A stretch of 47,318 nucleotides of DNA from Myxococcaceae bacterium (GTDB lineage: Bacteria; Myxococcota; Myxococcia; Myxococcales; Myxococcaceae), in the NCBI GenBank assembly GCA_016926755.1, contig JAFGNZ010000077.1:1-47318 (forward strand), given 5' to 3'. Shown in pieces: positions 5,034-21,274 of this stretch (position 1 is the stretch's first letter; the number at the start of each line of letters is the position of its first letter). The notes under the pieces are model-generated. The model did not search any database. It was not told the DNA's origin and worked only from the letters and a program-made list of their open reading frames with translations. A program made the position numbers and the translations under genes.

Positions 5034-5058
5034 GGAAAGCGGCCGGCGTCCGCTACGT
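5034..5058 (+). promoter_or_regulatory. Possible ECF-type autoregulatory promoter
   Basis: Upstream of the ECF sigma gene, GGAAA (5034-5038) is followed after 17 bp by CGT (5056-5058). This resembles the GGAAC...CGT pattern of ECF-sigma promoters, and a start near 5065 would serve the GTG at 5100. The match is partial and found by eye. Confidence 0.2.
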
Positions 5059-5099
5059 GGCGTGTGGCCGACAGGCGGCTGCGGAGGTCTGGAGGACAG

Positions 5100-5675
5100 G
5101 TGGGTTCCTCGGAGGAACTGACACAGTGGGTGCGGCGGGCAGCCCTCGGGGAGGAGCCCGCCTTTGGAGAGCTGTACCGGCGCACAAGGCCCATGGTGGC
5201 CCGGCTGGCCTCCGGGTTCGCCGCGCTGGACCCGGACGAGGTGGAAGACGTGATCCAGGAGACCTATGTCAGAGCGTTCAAGGCGCTCCCCCGGCTGAAG
5301 GAGCCTGGGGCGTTCGAGGCCTGGCTCCTGTCCATCGCCCGCAACCGGGCGCGCACCCGCCTGGAGCGCAAGAGCCTCCACCGCCGCCTGGAGGATGAGC
5401 CCCAGGATCCCGAGCCCGAGGCCGTCCCCCTGCTGCCCGAGGCGCTCCAGGCGGAGCGGGACATCGCCGTGGTGCACCAGCTCATCTCCGAGTTGCCCGA
5501 GGGCGAGGAGAAGAAGACCGTCCAGCTCTTCTACCTCGAGGGGGAGCTGTCCGCGCGCGAGATCGCCGAGAGGCTGGGCGTGGGCAAGAGCGCGGTCACC
5601 ATGCGGCTGGAGCGGTTCCGGGCGCGCATCAAGCGAGAGTTGCTCCGGCGCGTGCTCGCCGGGCGGTGGGAGTGA
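5100..5675 (+). CDS. ECF-family RNA polymerase sigma factor
   Basis: 191 aa from the GTG at 5100, chosen because GGAGG lies 4 bp upstream; an earlier GTG at 5064 would add 12 Arg/Gly-rich residues with no ribosome site. Sigma region 2 is seen in DEVEDVIQETYVRAFKALPR and FEAWLLSIARNRAR. Region 4 is LSAREIAERLGVGKSAVTMR, a helix-turn-helix for the -35 element. There is no region 1.1 or 3, so this is an ECF (group 4) factor. It should direct core polymerase to envelope or stress genes, probably including its own operon. The anti-sigma gene follows after 4 bp, then a caspase-like lipoprotein and a Cys-rich lipoprotein. Confidence 0.9.
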   Translation: MGSSEELTQWVRRAALGEEPAFGELYRRTRPMVARLASGFAALDPDEVEDVIQETYVRAFKALPRLKEPGAFEAWLLSIARNRARTRLERKSLHRRLEDEPQDPEPEAVPLLPEALQAERDIAVVHQLISELPEGEEKKTVQLFYLEGELSAREIAERLGVGKSAVTMRLERFRARIKRELLRRVLAGRWE

Positions 5676-5679
5676 TGTC

Positions 5680-6465
5680 ATGAAGCACCTTGATCCCCAG
5701 GCGCTGCGCGCGCTCGCAGCCCAGGAGCCCGAGGCGGTGGCCTGGTTCCGGGAGCACCTGGCCTCCCCCTGCGACACCTGCGAGGAGTTCCTCGCCCAGC
5801 ACCCCGACACGGACCTGCTCGATGGCCGGGTGGACGCGCTCCTGCTCGGGCTGGCCCCACCCCGGCAGGCGCCCCTGGACGAGGTGGGCTGGATGCGCAT
5901 CAGGCGACAGCTGCGCACCCCTGCGCACCCGAGGCGGTGGCTGGCGGTGGCCGCGGCGGTGGCCGCCTGCCTGCTGGGCGTGGTGCTCGTGCCGCGCCTG
6001 GTCGCGCCCCCGTCCCAGGGGGACATCTGGGATGGGGTGAAGGGCTCGAGGCGCATCACGCTGGAGCTGGCGGCGGTGGCCCGGAGCGCGGATGGGCAGC
6101 TGCGGCGGCTGGATCCGGGGGCCCGGGTCCCCGCGGAGGATGTGCTCCTGCTGCGCTACCACGCCACCGAGGCGGGCACCGCCCTGCTCTTCCAGCAGGC
6201 GGGAGACAGGGCTCCCGAGCTGCTCGGCAGCTTCTCGCTGGAGGCCGGGACGCACGATCTGCGGGATCCTCGCGGGCTCACCGGGGTGAGCCTCGCCGGA
6301 GAGGTGGGCGGGGTGACGCTGTGGCTGGTGGCCGCGCCCACAGGGGAGGAGCTGGTGCCCGAGCAGGTGCGGGAGGCGCTGGTGGGAGGAACGCTCCAGG
6401 AGGACTACCCGCTGTCCGTGGCCCGGTTCGACGTCTCTGTCCAGACAGGCCAGAATCCTCGCTGA
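5680..6465 (+). CDS. Probable membrane-bound anti-sigma factor
   Basis: 261 aa. The N-terminal cytoplasmic part (1-85) contains HLASPCDTC, an H-x4-C-x2-C arrangement close to the zinc-binding anti-sigma (ZAS) H-x3-C-x2-C motif. A single membrane helix follows (WLAVAAAVAACLLGVVLVPRL, about 87-107). The rest, about 150 residues, is predicted periplasmic and has beta-rich text without an obvious domain. Position directly after an ECF sigma gene supports a role in holding the factor at the membrane and releasing it on an envelope signal. The gene starts 4 bp after the sigma stop and ends 3 bp before the next start. No site-2 protease motif is seen in it. Confidence 0.7.
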   Translation: MKHLDPQALRALAAQEPEAVAWFREHLASPCDTCEEFLAQHPDTDLLDGRVDALLLGLAPPRQAPLDEVGWMRIRRQLRTPAHPRRWLAVAAAVAACLLGVVLVPRLVAPPSQGDIWDGVKGSRRITLELAAVARSADGQLRRLDPGARVPAEDVLLLRYHATEAGTALLFQQAGDRAPELLGSFSLEAGTHDLRDPRGLTGVSLAGEVGGVTLWLVAAPTGEELVPEQVREALVGGTLQEDYPLSVARFDVSVQTGQNPR

Positions 6466-6468
6466 CCC

Positions 6469-8109
6469 GTGAAGCGCCTCGTCCCCATGCTGCTGGGAGC
6501 CCTCGCGGCCTGCGCGAGCCCTGCTGCCCTCGAGAAGGGCGGCCTGGTGCCGCTCAGGCTCGATGAGACCGCGCTGTCCGACGCCTATGCGCCGCGGCGC
6601 ATCGCCCTGCTCGTCGGCATCTCCCAGTTCCAGGATCCGCAGTGGAGAGATCTGCGCTACTCGGAGAAGGACGCGCAGGATCTGGCCGCGGCCCTGGGCG
6701 ATCCGGCGCGCGGGCGCTTCGATCAGGTGCGCCTGCTCAGCCTCCCCGAGCAGACGACGCGCGCGGCCATCCTCGCGGCGCTCCGGGAGCTGCAGCGGGA
6801 GGCCCACCGCCCGGATGACGTGGTGGTGGTGTACTTCTCCGCGCACGGCACGCTGGCCCGGGATGGGCAGGGCGAGCTCAAGCGCTACCTCGTCACGCAC
6901 GATGCCTCCTACCGCGCCATCTCGCAGACGGCGCTCTCCATGGACGTGCTGAAGGCGGAGTTCGACAAGCTGCCCAGCCGGCGCCGGCTGCTGGTGCTGG
7001 CCACCTGCCACAGCGGCAGCGGCAAGTCGCTGCTGCCCAAGGAGCTGGAGACGGAGCTTGCGGGCATCAAGTCCGGCTTCTACGCGCGCCCGCTGGAGGA
7101 GTCGAGCCGCGCCTCCATGGTGTTCGCCGCGTGCGACTGGGGCGAGACGGCCCGCGAGGACGAGGGGCTGCGCAACGACATCTACACCCACTTCCTCATC
7201 GAGGGGCTCAGCGGCGCGGCGGATCGCAACGCGGACGGCGCCGTCACCGCCACCGAGGCGCATGATCACGCGCGCCGCCGCACCTTCGCCTTCACCCAGG
7301 GGCGCCAGCGCCCGTCCGCGGAGATCCTCGAGGTGGGCGCCGATCCGGTGGTGCTGTCCGGCAGCATCAACCGCGTGGGCCGCCCGGAGCTGTTCTCGTA
7401 CAACCCGCGGCTGGACGGCTTCACGCTCAAGGTGGACGGCGAGGAGCGCACGGAGCTGCCGGGCGGGGCCGCGGTGGTGCCGGGCCGCCGCACCGTGGAG
7501 CTGACCAAGGGCGCCACGGTGCTGGTGCGGCGCGAGGTGGAGGTGGCCGCGGGCGAGCGGCTGCCGCTGGAGGAGCTCCTGGCGGACACCTTCCCGCGCC
7601 GCTCGCTGTCCCTGCTGGGCGGCATGTTCTCCTTCGTGGACGGGCACAGCCGGGACGAGCTGCTGCCGGCCTCTCCGGAGGTGGCGGTGGTGCTGCGGCT
7701 GGAGGATCGGCCGCTGCGGGACTTCGGGCTGCTGCTGGACGTCAGCGGCAGCAGCGGCCGGCGCAGCCTCCACCTCACGCCCGGCACCGAGGTGCCCTTT
7801 GGTTTCACCCGGCTCTCGCTCGGTGTGGGGATGCCCTACCTGTGGCGCTGGGAGCGGCTGTCCCTCTTCGCGGGGCCCCGCGTGGCCGCTCTCTACCTGC
7901 GGCGGTCTTTCGATGTAGAGGCGTTCGTCGGCGGGCAGGAGTACTTCACCGTGAGCCCGGGGGTGGTGGGAGGCGTGGTGCTGCGCCTGGGCGAGCGGCT
8001 GGAGCTGATCTCGCAGGCGCAGTTGATGCTGACGTACGTCATCGTGGATGGGCAGGGGCAGGCGGTGGGGTTCACCGGCGGCTGGGCCGGCATGGGGTAT
8101 CGCTTCTGA
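6469..8109 (+). CDS. Caspase-like (peptidase C14) lipoprotein with C-terminal outer-membrane beta-barrel
   Basis: 546 aa, GTG start 3 bp after the anti-sigma stop. The signal ends in a lipobox (LAAC, Cys15). Residues about 42-290 form a caspase/metacaspase fold: RIALLVGISQF (first strand), DDVVVVYFSAHGT with catalytic His126, and LLVLATCHSGSGKS with catalytic Cys180. An EF-hand-like loop DRNADGAVTATE (252-263) follows, suggesting calcium control as in metacaspases. From about 375 the protein alternates hydrophobic strands and turns and ends GGWAGMGYRF; a terminal Phe is typical of outer-membrane barrels. One polypeptide thus joins an exported cysteine protease to a barrel. It is probably part of an envelope-stress or signal-cleavage system. 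Substrate unknown. Confidence 0.75.
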   Translation: MKRLVPMLLGALAACASPAALEKGGLVPLRLDETALSDAYAPRRIALLVGISQFQDPQWRDLRYSEKDAQDLAAALGDPARGRFDQVRLLSLPEQTTRAAILAALRELQREAHRPDDVVVVYFSAHGTLARDGQGELKRYLVTHDASYRAISQTALSMDVLKAEFDKLPSRRRLLVLATCHSGSGKSLLPKELETELAGIKSGFYARPLEESSRASMVFAACDWGETAREDEGLRNDIYTHFLIEGLSGAADRNADGAVTATEAHDHARRRTFAFTQGRQRPSAEILEVGADPVVLSGSINRVGRPELFSYNPRLDGFTLKVDGEERTELPGGAAVVPGRRTVELTKGATVLVRREVEVAAGERLPLEELLADTFPRRSLSLLGGMFSFVDGHSRDELLPASPEVAVVLRLEDRPLRDFGLLLDVSGSSGRRSLHLTPGTEVPFGFTRLSLGVGMPYLWRWERLSLFAGPRVAALYLRRSFDVEAFVGGQEYFTVSPGVVGGVVLRLGERLELISQAQLMLTYVIVDGQGQAVGFTGGWAGMGYRF

Positions 8110-9170
8110 TGCGCCAGACACCACACATCGTGATGACGGCCCTCCTGTCCCTGGGCGTGGGCGGCTGCTTCGAGCTGGAGAACGCGCCCTTCCGCGTGGG
8201 CACGGTGCATGGCCAGCTGCGCCAGAGTGATCCGGCCGTGGCGCTCGTGTCCGTGCTGGACCACCCGGAGCTCCTCAGCGCCGTGGCGCCGGACGGCACC
8301 TTCACGCTGGAGCAGGTCCCCTCGGGCGAGGCCGAGCTGTTCATCATCGCCTCGGCGAGCAAGGCGCTGCGCCCGGCCCTCACCGTCCCAGGGGGGCAGT
8401 CCGTCTCGCTGGGCCTGGTGGAGCCCGCGGAGGCCAGCTTCCTGGAGCTGCGCCTGAAGGCTCCCGGCTACCAGGACGTGGACGAGGCGTGGATCGACGT
8501 GGTGGGCACCCCGCTGCAGGGGCTGCGGCCGGACGAGTCGGGGCGCCTGCTCGTGGGCCCCCTCCCGGACGGCTGCTACACGCTGGCCGTCTCCCTGGAG
8601 GGCTTCCCGGAGGTGCGCTCCGAGACGTGCGTGAGCATTGGAGAGACCAAGGACGTGAAGGTGAACCTGCCCGCCCCGAACAGCGGGTGCACGGAGACGG
8701 GGTGCTCGGACGGCTTCCACTGCGCCCCGGATGACCGGTGCGTCGAGTGCCTCGAGGATGCCCACTGCGGCTCCAACCTGGTGTGCCAGAACTCCCGCTG
8801 TGAGGGCCAGGCGCCCTTCTGCACCCCGTGCGCGGGGGACTGGAATTGCCGCTCCGACGCGAGCTGCCAGGAGCTGCCCCAGGGGGGCTCGGCGTGCGTG
8901 GAGCGGTGCGACGACGGCGATGCCTGCGAGGACGGCTTCACCTGCCAGGCAGGCCAGTGCCTGCCCGACACGGCCCGGTTCAACGGGTGCGGCGCGTACC
9001 TGAGTCTGGGCGCGGACTGCGAAGGCGACGAGCGCTGCCGCGCGCTGGGGCTCGTCAACGGGCTCTGCGTCGAGGCGAAGTGCACCCTGCCGTGCACCGA
9101 GGACCGGGAGTGCTCGGACACCTTCAGGTGCAGTGACACCGCCTTCGGCCGCGTGTGCCAGCCGGACTGA
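8109..9170 (+). CDS. Cys-rich lipoprotein with carboxypeptidase-regulatory-like domain
   Basis: 353 aa. The ATG overlaps the caspase gene stop by one base (TGATG). The signal ends GVGGC (Cys20), a lipobox. Residues about 30-190 look like one or two carboxypeptidase-regulatory/Ig-like beta-sandwiches (GTFTLEQVPSGEAELFI, then GRLLVGPLPDGCYTLAVSL). Residues about 195-353 are a run of disulphide-rich modules with C-x-x-D-x-x-C spacing (CVECLEDAHCGSNLVCQNSRC, and further CxxGxxC repeats), as in the Cys-rich repeats of many myxobacterial surface proteins. It is the last gene of the sigma-caspase operon and a candidate for the caspase's partner or substrate at the cell surface. No enzymatic motif is visible. 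Confidence 0.65.
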   Translation: MRQTPHIVMTALLSLGVGGCFELENAPFRVGTVHGQLRQSDPAVALVSVLDHPELLSAVAPDGTFTLEQVPSGEAELFIIASASKALRPALTVPGGQSVSLGLVEPAEASFLELRLKAPGYQDVDEAWIDVVGTPLQGLRPDESGRLLVGPLPDGCYTLAVSLEGFPEVRSETCVSIGETKDVKVNLPAPNSGCTETGCSDGFHCAPDDRCVECLEDAHCGSNLVCQNSRCEGQAPFCTPCAGDWNCRSDASCQELPQGGSACVERCDDGDACEDGFTCQAGQCLPDTARFNGCGAYLSLGADCEGDERCRALGLVNGLCVEAKCTLPCTEDRECSDTFRCSDTAFGRVCQPD

Positions 9171-9884
9171 CTACGGCGCGAGGATGAGGCCGTCGCGGGC
9201 GCACTGCCGCACCGCCCGCCGCACCTGCTCCTCCGCCAGGCCCGTCGCCGCCGCGACGTCAGCCACGGAGAGCCCCTCCACCGCCATCTTCAGCACCAGC
9301 AGCATGCGCTCGTTGGCCGCGGCGAACCAGGTGTTGAGCTGGCTCGGGTGCCGCCACAGCAGCGCCATCTCCTCGCCGGGCGCGGGCACCGGAGCCGCGC
9401 CCTTCGCGCGGACCCAGGCGCAGAGCTGGTACGGGTGCTGGAGCACCGTGAGCGTCGGGTTCACCGTGAGCCGCTCCGCGCGCTCCGGCACCTGCTCCTC
9501 CGAGGCGTATACCGCCCAGTCCGCCCACTCGAAGCGCGTGAGCGCCGGGATGAACTCCGGCAGCTGGCGCGCGGCCGCCACGTCCGCCGCGAAGGCAGGG
9601 AAGGCCTCGCCCAGCCGGTTCATCTCGTAGTGACGCGCGGGGCGCGTGGCGGTGTAGCCCTCCATGAGCGCCGCCCACTGCTCGCCGCCGACGCTCGCCT
9701 GGGTGAGCGGGTAGAGCTTCTCCAGCGCCGAGCGCACGTGGAAGCGCACGAACTCCCCGTAGAGCGCCACGCGCGAGGGCGGCGAGTCCCAGCCCGGGTG
9801 GGATGCGCGCAGGCGCTCCAGCCCGGAAGGATCGGCGAGGAAGTCCGCCATCGAGTCGAAGAAGTGCCGCAGCCCGGGCTTCAT
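9171..9884 (-). CDS. bufC: HvfC/BufC-like protein (DUF2063), RiPP maturation partner
   Basis: 237 aa. Start ATG at 9884, overlapping the bufB stop by 4 bp (ATGA). The N-terminus LRHFFDSMADFLADPSG and the segment FVRFHVRSALEKLYPLTQASVGGEQW fit the DUF2063 N-terminal domain. The central ALTRFEWADWAVYASEE is also typical. The C-terminal 40 residues (LSVADVAAATGLAEEQVRRA) read as a winged-helix-like module. Family knowledge: this protein partners the DUF692 oxygenase and recruits the precursor peptide. Neighbours (DUF692 gene, EGKCG precursor) make the assignment firm. The stop abuts the convergent lipoprotein gene with no gap. Confidence 0.85.
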   Translation of the reverse strand: MKPGLRHFFDSMADFLADPSGLERLRASHPGWDSPPSRVALYGEFVRFHVRSALEKLYPLTQASVGGEQWAALMEGYTATRPARHYEMNRLGEAFPAFAADVAAARQLPEFIPALTRFEWADWAVYASEEQVPERAERLTVNPTLTVLQHPYQLCAWVRAKGAAPVPAPGEEMALLWRHPSQLNTWFAAANERMLLVLKMAVEGLSVADVAAATGLAEEQVRRAVRQCARDGLILAP

Positions 9885-10726
9885 CGCGCCACCTCCTGGA
9901 GCACGGCGCGCGCCTGGTCCGCCTGGTCCAGCACCGCCTCCATCGAGGGGATGGACTGATCCCACTCGATCAGCGTGGACACCGGGCCGGTGCGCTCCAG
10001 CACGTAGCGGTAGAGCGACCAGACGTCGTCACACACCGGCGCGCCGTGCGTGTCGATGATCACGTCCGGGTAGCGATCGTGCCCGGCCAGGTGGATCTGC
10101 ACCACGCGCTCCAGCGGCAGTGCGTCCACGAAGGCGCGCGGCTCATACCCGTGGTTCTGGGAGTTCACGTAGATGTTGTTCACGTCCAGCAGCAGGCCAC
10201 AGTCGGCCTGCTCGACCACGTGCCGCAGGAAGGTGGCCTCGGCCAGCGTCCCGCCCGGCATGCGGGCGTAGTAGCTGGGGTTCTCCAGCAGGAAGGGCCG
10301 GCCCACCCGCGCCATCACCTCGCGCACGCGGGGCACCACGTGCTCCACCGCCTCCTCGTTGAAGGGCAGCGGGAGCAGATCGTGGAGGTACACCCCACCC
10401 AGCCGCGAGTACGACAGGTGATCCGAGAAGAACGGCGCGTCCACCCGCTTCACGAGCGCCGCCAGCCGGGTGACGTAGTCCTCGTCCATCGGATCCGGCC
10501 CGCCGATGTTCAGCCCCACGCCGTGCGGCAGCACCGGCCAGCGCTCGACGCACGCGTCCAGGGCCCGCTGCGAGCGGCCCCCCAGGCTGAGGAAGTTCTC
10601 GGGGATGATCTCCACCCAGTCGAGCGCTCGCTCGGTGCGGGGCAGCGTCTCGTAGAAGCCACGCCGGAGCCCGATGCCGGCCCCCAGTGGTCTCAACCCA
10701 TGCCTCTGCGCGTAGCTCTCGGACAC
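9881..10726 (-). CDS. bufB: DUF692 multinuclear iron oxygenase (BufB/HvfB/MbnB family)
   Basis: 281 aa. TIM-barrel DUF692 enzyme that oxidatively modifies cysteines of a ribosomal peptide. Metal-ligand motifs seen in order: FFSDHLSYS (His), LLENPSYY (Glu), LLDVNNIYVNSQNHG (Asp/Asn), VVQIHLAGHD (His, Asp), IIDTHGAPV (Asp, His) and LIEWDQSIP (Glu). All expected ligands appear present. It is translationally coupled to bufC and separated from the upstream precursor gene by an 82-bp gap holding a strong hairpin followed by a T-rich stretch. By analogy with Hvf and bufferin systems it should convert cysteines of the EGKCG motifs to a copper-binding form. The precise product is inferred. Confidence 0.9.
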   Translation of the reverse strand: MSESYAQRHGLRPLGAGIGLRRGFYETLPRTERALDWVEIIPENFLSLGGRSQRALDACVERWPVLPHGVGLNIGGPDPMDEDYVTRLAALVKRVDAPFFSDHLSYSRLGGVYLHDLLPLPFNEEAVEHVVPRVREVMARVGRPFLLENPSYYARMPGGTLAEATFLRHVVEQADCGLLLDVNNIYVNSQNHGYEPRAFVDALPLERVVQIHLAGHDRYPDVIIDTHGAPVCDDVWSLYRYVLERTGPVSTLIEWDQSIPSMEAVLDQADQARAVLQEVAR

Positions 10727-10753
10727 GTGGAAGCTCCTCGGCGGAAAACAACA

Positions 10754-10785
10754 CGGGCGGCAGGAAGTTCCCTTCCCGCCGCCCG
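10754..10785 (-). terminator. Hairpin plus T-rich tract between bufA and bufB (partial terminator)
   Basis: Arms CGGGCGGC (10754-10761) and GCCGCCCG (10778-10785) pair perfectly; inside them GGAAG and CTTCC pair again, giving a 13-bp stem with small bulges. Read leftward it is followed by TGTTGTTTT. It lies just after the bufA stop, so it would cut most transcripts after the precursor gene and let few reach the enzyme genes. Confidence 0.75.
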
Positions 10786-10808
10786 CGCTCAGCTACGGCA
10801 GCAGGCGA

Positions 10809-11057
10809 CTACTTCGCACCGCCGCACTTGCCCTCACCGCACTTGCCCTCACCGCACTTGCCCTCGGCGCCCTTCTCGGCGGCGGGGGCGGCGGCGGCGT
10901 CACCGCCCTCGGTGGCCTTCTCGCCACCGCAGCTGGCCTCGGCGCCCTTGGCGGCGGCCTCGGTGGAGCCCTCCGCGGCCTTGTTGGACGCACAGCCGGT
11001 GGCCAGCGCGCCGAGAGAGAGGGTACCGACGATGGCAGCCAGAGCCTTGACGTTCAT
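10809..11057 (-). CDS. bufA: Bufferin/HvfA-like precursor peptide with three tandem EGKCG motifs
   Basis: 82 aa. Start ATG at 11057 has AAAGGA 7 bp upstream. A signal peptide ends LATGC (Cys22), so the product is exported and may be lipidated. The middle is low-complexity Ala/Glu/Gly/Lys. The C-terminus is three back-to-back EGKCG units (65-79) closing GGAK, the motif of HvfA-type copper-binding RiPPs whose cysteines are modified by DUF692 enzymes. An extra Cys43 (SCGGEK) lies outside the motifs. At DNA level the motifs are near-identical 15-bp repeats (10824-10868). It is the first gene of the buf set and the likely copper-sequestering product; the YceI gene lies 48 bp upstream. Confidence 0.85.
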   Translation of the reverse strand: MNVKALAAIVGTLSLGALATGCASNKAAEGSTEAAAKGAEASCGGEKATEGGDAAAAPAAEKGAEGKCGEGKCGEGKCGGAK

Positions 11058-18651: not shown

Positions 18652-19545
18652 TCAGGCGGCGAAGGCGCCGATGGTGCCCTCGGGGAACTCCTCCAGGAAG
18701 CGCGCGCGCGTACGCGGCGTGAACGTGCCGCGCGTCATGTACACCAGCAGGCGCCGGAGGATGCCTCGCGTCTGCTCCAGCGCGGCTTCGACTTCAGCGG
18801 CGAAGTCGAAGCCATCATGCCGGTACAGCTCGTGGAAGCTCAGCTGCGAGTAGGCCGGCAAGGCCCGCGTCCTCCCCAGCGGACTGGAGAGCATCAGCCC
18901 CATCAGGTAGAGCCCCCTCACCCACCCATCGACCTGGGACTTGGTGGGAGCCAGCCCCACCCGCTCCTGCGAGGCCAGCCGGACGAGCTCGTAGATGCCC
19001 CGGCCGATGCCCCGGTACGGGAAGCCGGTGCTCTTCACCACCTGGAAGTGCTCGCGCAGCCGCGGGGTGCCCAGCGTCTCCATGCCGTGCAGCTCGCGCA
19101 GGTAGAAGAGCGTCTGCGACCACTCGATCTCCCGGTGCGCGCCCAGCGCGCGCTGATCCTTGCGGCGGTGGCGCGCCACCAGCCGATCCACCTCGGGGTG
19201 CAGCCGCCGATCCAGGCACAGGTGCGTGAAGTAGCCGGCCAGCACCGCCAGGCCGGCCTCGGTGCCCACCAGGGCGCCCGTGGCCACCAGCTCCCCCATC
19301 TTCAGCCCCAGCCCCACCGGCGCGCGCTCATGGTACAGCCGCGCGAAGGCTGGCAGCTCCCGCTCCGGCAGCAGCGCGGAGAGGCCGCCCCGCAGGCCCT
19401 CGCACACCGGCAGATCCGGCAGCGCCGCCCCGAAGCGCGCGTAGGGGAGATCCTCGGCCAGCGCTCGCGCGATGTCCGCTGGCAGGCTGCCTGGGTGGGC
19501 AGCGAGCTGCTCGATGGCTGTCAGGTGAAGCAGCAGCGTAGGCAT
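18652..19545 (-). CDS. Zinc-dependent phospholipase C-like protein
   Basis: 297 aa from ATG at 19545; a TTG three codons earlier is possible. It starts MPTLLLHLTAIEQLA and has FGAALPDLP (around 41-49), GYFTHLCLDRRLHPEVDRLV (His/Asp cluster) and HREIEWSQTLFYLREL, with the spaced His and Asp residues expected of the zinc-dependent phospholipase C/P1-nuclease-like helical fold. It has no signal peptide, unlike secreted phospholipases, so a cytoplasmic role is likely. It is divergent from pepA; the 127-bp intergenic region holds AACGTTGAC (19582-19590). Confidence 0.6.
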   Translation of the reverse strand: MPTLLLHLTAIEQLAAHPGSLPADIARALAEDLPYARFGAALPDLPVCEGLRGGLSALLPERELPAFARLYHERAPVGLGLKMGELVATGALVGTEAGLAVLAGYFTHLCLDRRLHPEVDRLVARHRRKDQRALGAHREIEWSQTLFYLRELHGMETLGTPRLREHFQVVKSTGFPYRGIGRGIYELVRLASQERVGLAPTKSQVDGWVRGLYLMGLMLSSPLGRTRALPAYSQLSFHELYRHDGFDFAAEVEAALEQTRGILRRLLVYMTRGTFTPRTRARFLEEFPEGTIGAFAA

Positions 19546-19672
19546 GCAGATCAACAGCTACCCAGCGCGACGCGTCATTGCAACGTTGACGTGAAGCCGA
19601 AGCTTTGCGCGTATGTGGGGGGGCGCTACAGTCCGCGCCGTTTTTTCCACCCCCCAGGAGCGCTTCCTCATC

Positions 19673-21274
<1,602 letters not shown>

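Follow-up and report, generated by a model that had tools for sequence, protein, structure and literature searches.

Sigma-E and the DegS-RseA-RseP cascade form an envelope stress pathway, in which the site-1 enzyme, of the DegS type, is a PDZ serine protease. What caspase homologues do in bacteria has long been asked, mostly with cell death in mind. Passages of a survey from 2012 describe metacaspase operons with a sigma-70 factor in Myxococcus, Anaeromyxobacter, Haliangium, Sorangium, Ralstonia and Fibrobacter; in M. xanthus DK1622 four of the five metacaspases are found in sigma-70 operons, and a role in autolysis is suggested (Asplund-Samuelsson 2012, PMC3501461). In Craspase, the sigma factor inhibitor Csx30 is cut by Csx29, a caspase-like protein (PMC10028731). 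ECF54 sigma factors, of the extracytoplasmic function (ECF) type, have CHAT-domain proteins in their genomic context, and control by a protease has been proposed (PMC8999054). Furthermore, EACC1- and EACC2-associated bacterial caspases are conflict systems, and EACC2 neighbourhoods often contain an ECF sigma gene (PMC8195603). Here we describe an operon encoding an ECF sigma factor, a putative membrane anti-sigma factor, an exported caspase with a predicted beta-barrel and a Cys-rich lipoprotein. It lies on the + strand of a 47,318-nt window, which is the whole stretch of DNA analysed, from Myxococcaceae bacterium (GCA_016926755.1, contig JAFGNZ010000077.1).

Orthologues of this operon are very likely among those covered by the 2012 survey. 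An earlier note, made from the DNA alone, knew of no description of this set, which is only partly right: the pairing of a metacaspase with sigma-70 in an operon was published there, whereas the passages of the survey that bear on it make no mention of an anti-sigma factor, a lipoprotein-caspase-barrel architecture, a Lys-Gly site or a cleavage mechanism (PMC3501461). New beyond that pairing are a Lys-Gly site common to the anti-sigma factor and the caspase, and the association of caspases with anti-sigma factors that carry it. In the openly searchable literature we found neither the Lys-Gly site described nor a case of an exported caspase that acts on a membrane anti-sigma factor. We somewhat favour the reading that the operon is an envelope switch, in which a Lys-specific periplasmic caspase would activate itself, make the first cut in the anti-sigma factor and thereby free the sigma factor.

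Like RseA, the putative anti-sigma factor is a single-pass protein with a periplasmic domain, and a first cut next to the membrane followed by site-2 proteolysis is predicted, which its modelled topology and linker fit. Unlike DegS, the site-1 protease would be a cysteine protease with a caspase fold that ends in an outer-membrane barrel. As in Craspase, or CASP-sigma, of type III-E CRISPR systems, a caspase-family (there CHAT) protease would be directed against the inhibitor of an ECF sigma factor, although for the window this is a proposal. Craspase is a cytoplasmic, RNA-activated TPR-CHAT protease with a soluble inhibitor, whereas the window encodes an exported C14 caspase with a signal peptide and a barrel, next to a membrane anti-sigma factor. 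The caspase domain is shared with the EACC systems, but the window protein has a signal peptide and a barrel, no EACC domain was seen in it, and it scores 101.6 bits against the cut-off of 140 of the EACC1-associated caspase model (NCBIfam NF047832). With ECF54 the locus shares the proposed control of an ECF sigma factor by a caspase-fold protease; ECF54 has no anti-sigma factor.

The four-gene operon is real. The positions of the open reading frames (ORFs) bear out the genes of the earlier note and the 4, 3 and -1 bp between them. That note also proposed synteny as a check, and all four genes do occur together in 43 of the 46 family loci (caspase at least 38% identical, window included), far beyond chance. 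It had let the set begin at 5034, where there is no start codon. The first in-frame start of the sigma factor gene (5064..5675, 203 aa) is the GTG at 5064, and the GTG at 5100 (191 aa), which is preceded by GGAGG and is the first start in many relatives, is equally likely. The sigma factor is of the ECF type, having about 200 aa with regions 2 and 4 only. Sigma70_r2 is found at residues 37-104 (1.7e-16), the sigma70-ECF model TIGR02937 covers residues 33-193 above its cut-off (3.5e-25), and the region 4 model stays just under its own.

The second gene (5680..6465, 261 aa) encodes the single-pass protein, which by its position and its modelled topology probably works like a membrane anti-sigma factor. 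Its AlphaFold2 model (predicted local distance difference test, pLDDT, 83) has cytoplasmic helices at 6-57, a transmembrane (TM) helix at 84-108, a disordered linker at 109-121 and a beta domain at 128-255. No family could be assigned to it with Pfam, NCBIfam or PADLOC, nor by a sequence search against solved structures. Foldseek returned only generic immunoglobulin-like matches for the beta domain, so we leave its fold unnamed. Close to the N-terminus, H26-x4-C31-x2-C34 (5755..5781) resembles the motif of zinc anti-sigma (ZAS) factors. Its three residues are invariant in 34 sequences; it is one residue longer than the H-x3-C-x2-C of ZAS proteins and has no match to the Pfam family zf-HC2. The linker, on the periplasmic side next to the membrane, is disordered, and it is variable except for Lys121-Gly122 (6040..6045), which is invariant in 34 of 34 aligned sequences and which we regard as a putative cleavage site.

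The same dipeptide, or one close to it, is present twice in the product of the third gene (6469..8109, GTG start, 546 aa). Lys23-Gly24 (6535..6540), between the lipid anchor and the caspase domain, is found in all 35 lipoprotein-type rows that cover the region and is absent from two rows only, both of them relatives without a lipobox. Lys201-Ser202 (7069..7074) lies in the loop between p20 and p10 (pLDDT<50), with K201 invariant and followed by G, S or A. The p20/p10 loop is the place of self-processing in caspases, and Lys201-Ser202 is a putative site of this kind. The protein has 64 bits to Peptidase_C14 (PF00656, 2.2e-17, cut-off 21.4) and is thus a C14 member. An AlphaFold2 model from 38 sequences (mean pLDDT 83) places the caspase domain at about 43-300, followed by a small beta module and an eight-stranded barrel at 378-545 (7600..8106). 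The caspase domain aligns with MALT1 (3uo8) at Z 23.3 over 216 residues with a root mean square deviation of 3.2, and also matches caspases and metacaspase 4. The earlier note had called a C-terminal barrel and suggested structure prediction as a check; the eight modelled strands indeed match OmpA, NspA, Ail and OmpX in Foldseek. With TMt values of 0.70 for OmpX and 0.64 for NspA and an aromatic C-terminal residue, in GYRF, this predicted barrel is classed with the OmpA/OmpX type of outer-membrane barrel. Of the two conditions under which the earlier note would have been refuted, a lack of synteny in relatives and a C-terminus not folded as a barrel, neither was borne out, the second by prediction.

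The further features listed in that note, the lipobox LAAC, His126, Cys180, the EF-hand-like loop DRNADGAVTATE and the C-terminal YRF, are likewise all present, and homologues as distant as about 40-50% identity retain them. The lipobox (residues 12-15) ends in Cys15 (6511..6513), conserved in family members, and follows a signal peptide, which makes the protein a predicted lipoprotein. Catalytic His126 (6844..6846) and Cys180 (7006..7008) are invariant, as are D252, D256, G257 and E263 of the EF-hand-like loop (residues 252-263, 7222..7257). Metacaspases and paracaspases cleave after K or R, and in MALT1 the acids of the S1 pocket are D365, D462 and E500 (PMC4357240). D68 of the window protein aligns with the metacaspase Asp, and an equivalence of E226 is tentative.

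Besides the aligned sequences, K-G is kept in 24 of 25 further anti-sigma factors, from family loci that were mostly not used for motif discovery, and the remaining one has K-A. In divergent triads of sigma factor, anti-sigma factor and caspase, the anti-sigma factors can hardly be detected by sequence, if at all, and still they carry RTKG, RSKG, RIKG, RLKG, RAKG, RPKG, RMKG, TAKG, GVKG and similar motifs, always shortly past the TM helix, with M-G as one exception. Their caspases mostly have RxK-G nine residues past the catalytic Cys, where several catalytic-Cys loops were assigned by eye; the window family has K-[GSA] in the p20/p10 loop. The same RMKG is found in anti-sigma factor and caspase at loci L108 and L110, and the same RTKG in both at L048. 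Arg at P3 is found in both partners in 20 of 22 cases against 1 of 7 (p = 4e-4; p = 0.009 without close pairs), figures that are uncorrected for phylogeny and lend weak support.

As a control we took the ECF genes of three genomes. K-G was present in 12 of 15 TM partners adjacent to a caspase and in 2 of 43 others (p = 4e-8), and the three caspase-adjacent partners lacking it have K-S, M-G and R-G. When the control was limited to partners with a long extracytoplasmic part, 2 of 26 non-caspase partners had K-G (p = 4e-6). The chance rate of K-G in segments of 42 residues is 5.2%. We therefore rejected K-G as a general trait of ECF-neighbour proteins, since it stays at the base rate where no caspase is adjacent. 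From the other side, 20 loci were selected on the sole basis that they weakly matched the anti-sigma profile, and 18 of them have an adjacent caspase gene; the remaining two are at a contig edge (L354) and on a short contig (L343). The Arg-Gly anti-sigma factors of L334, L346 and L349 are all paired with one caspase subfamily (DSCNSFFV..PRK). Together with L331, these loci hold a separate subfamily of exported caspases, with a DSCNSFFV..PRK or DACKSYYL loop and anti-sigma factors with Arg-Gly or Lys-Ser. The shared Lys-Gly site and this case-control association give strong circumstantial support to the protease-driven envelope signalling that the earlier note had suggested.

A probable promoter lies at 5065..5089, with TGGCC (5065-5069), 16 bp and GGTC (5086-5089). 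The exact spacing, as TGGCC-N16-[GA][GC]TC, is found in 33 of 61 relatives, 25 of them with GGTC, and any other spacing in only 0-7 of the 61. The element is outside the coding part in orthologues with a later sigma start, and with GTG 5064 as the start codon it would overlap the beginning of the ORF. As the conserved TGGCC-N16-GGTC has the layout of an ECF promoter, it suggests autoregulation, with the sigma factor driving its own operon.

In the proposed switch, the caspase would be a Lys-specific, C14B-like protease. We infer that a stimulus at the envelope would lead to self-processing at Lys201 in the p20/p10 loop and at Lys23 in the lipid linker. The caspase would then cut the anti-sigma factor after Lys121, so that the periplasmic domain would be lost. 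The short stub left behind would become a substrate of a site-2 protease of the M50 type, for which the genome has genes. The released sigma factor would raise the expression of its own operon from TGGCC-N16-GGTC. The anti-sigma factor would in effect bear a copy of the maturation site of the caspase. More speculatively, the caspase may be active before its barrel is assembled, and failed assembly itself may be the signal.

Several points weigh against this switch. The cut at Lys121-Gly122 is a prediction, and cleavage is unobserved. The outer-membrane barrel should keep the caspase away from a site on the side of the inner membrane; because of this distance, the cut would need release of the caspase, activity during its transit or another enzyme. 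At the position two residues ahead of the catalytic Cys, the window protein has Ala178 in place of an S1 Asp. Situated where the beta domain is entered, K-G could also play a structural part or be recognised in some other way. Moreover, there are exceptions with K-A (L100), M-G (L107 and L326/L330) and K-S (L315/L331), the P3 covariation lacks a correction for phylogeny, and an orphan K-G anti-sigma factor (L320/L330) has no caspase nearby. Caspase loops retain K-G even at loci with no sigma gene detected in the vicinity (L116, L118-L120, L124). We therefore dropped the K-G of the loop as evidence tied to sigma adjacency and use it solely as an argument for self-processing. As a separate observation, the L320/L330 locus (G152:C331, about 18900-20300) encodes an ECF sigma factor with a typical RIKG anti-sigma factor and no detected caspase gene nearby, and a caspase acting in trans may control this anti-sigma factor.

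ECF operons often encode the targets of their own sigma factor. The caspase and the lipoprotein may be its output only; cleavage of the anti-sigma factor would then fall to a different site-1 protease with a preference for Lys-Gly, or the anti-sigma factor would be switched by ligand binding. The autoregulatory promoter-like sequence and the outer-membrane anchoring, which parts caspase from anti-sigma factor, are in line with this, but it leaves unexplained why K-G marks the anti-sigma factors linked to caspases and not the others, and why the same dipeptide stands in the caspase's own loop and in its linker. We consider it unlikely. A slightly smaller probability is given to K-G as a binding or structural motif, by which both linkers dock on a common partner, e.g. 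the active site of the caspase, in an inhibitory and uncut state, the caspase being a receptor instead of a protease. The motif is indeed invariant within disordered linkers, and pseudo-proteases are known among caspase homologues elsewhere (PMC8283722). Against docking, the examined members retain both catalytic residues, and the loop Lys sits where caspases normally get cut. Myxobacteria show developmental cell death. That the caspase is an enzyme of developmental execution or autolysis, with the sigma/anti-sigma pair merely timing its expression, as passages of the 2012 survey propose for Myxococcus metacaspases on operon grounds (PMC3501461), is very improbable, since conservation of the operon extends to relatives of the Anaeromyxobacter type and to further members of the phylum and no sequence link to death effectors was found.

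Beyond the window, the self-processing switch may be an example of a wider principle, which we put forward tentatively and rate as slightly less than probable. Across Myxococcota, many membrane anti-sigma factors would each have an exported caspase as dedicated site-1 protease and carry a Lys-Gly (or Arg-Gly) copy of that caspase's own activation site, so that one activity would both mature the caspase and open gene expression. Exchangeable C-terminal modules, often outer-membrane barrels, would be the sensors. The barrel is not universal among the divergent triads, which fits an exchangeable sensor module without proving one. For a large group of caspases the proposal offers a substrate (the anti-sigma factor), a bond (Lys-Gly near the membrane) and a reporter (the sigma-dependent promoter). 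If true, envelope stress signalling would gain a site-1 protease with a caspase fold, and the logic of Craspase, a caspase-like protease freeing an ECF sigma factor, would have a parallel outside the cytoplasm.

Full-length relatives of the caspase protein are found in most Myxococcaceae-like genomes and also in Anaeromyxobacter-like genomes and other families, with Hyalangium, Myxococcus, Corallococcus, Archangium and Anaeromyxobacter among the named carriers. Many genomes have a second operon, about 53% identical, with a shorter fourth protein. Triads are also found in metagenome-assembled genomes labelled Deltaproteobacteria, and Oligoflexus has a partial one with caspase and sigma factor. 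A second family of exported caspase-barrel proteins (L048-L051 and G000:C331), with no lipobox and about 30% identity over the full length, likewise occurs in a sigma/anti-sigma triad. At L126 and L127 the order is caspase, sigma factor, anti-sigma factor, and the caspases have no barrel-like C-terminus. The operon is interrupted at L044 (G016:C131), where the anti-sigma homologue (C131:5190-6020) lies upstream of the caspase (11697) at a distance of about 5.7 kb.

The fourth gene (8109..9170, 353 aa) is syntenic and encodes a lipoprotein with one or more carboxypeptidase-regulatory-like beta domains and a Cys-rich tail, annotated from weak family matches: CarboxypepD_reg (PF13620) at 5.5e-6, below the cut-off, and Myxo_Cys_RPT (NCBIfam TIGR04201). 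The paralogous operons encode a shorter form of it. Directly downstream and convergent, on the - strand at 9171-11057, are genes for a DUF2063 protein and an enzyme of the MbnB/TglH/ChrH family (PF05114, 2.4e-102), which modifies ribosomally synthesised and post-translationally modified peptides (RiPPs). An 82-aa peptide encoded there ends in GEGKCGEGKCGEGKCGGAK, and these genes are apparently a small RiPP cluster with a Cys-repeat precursor.

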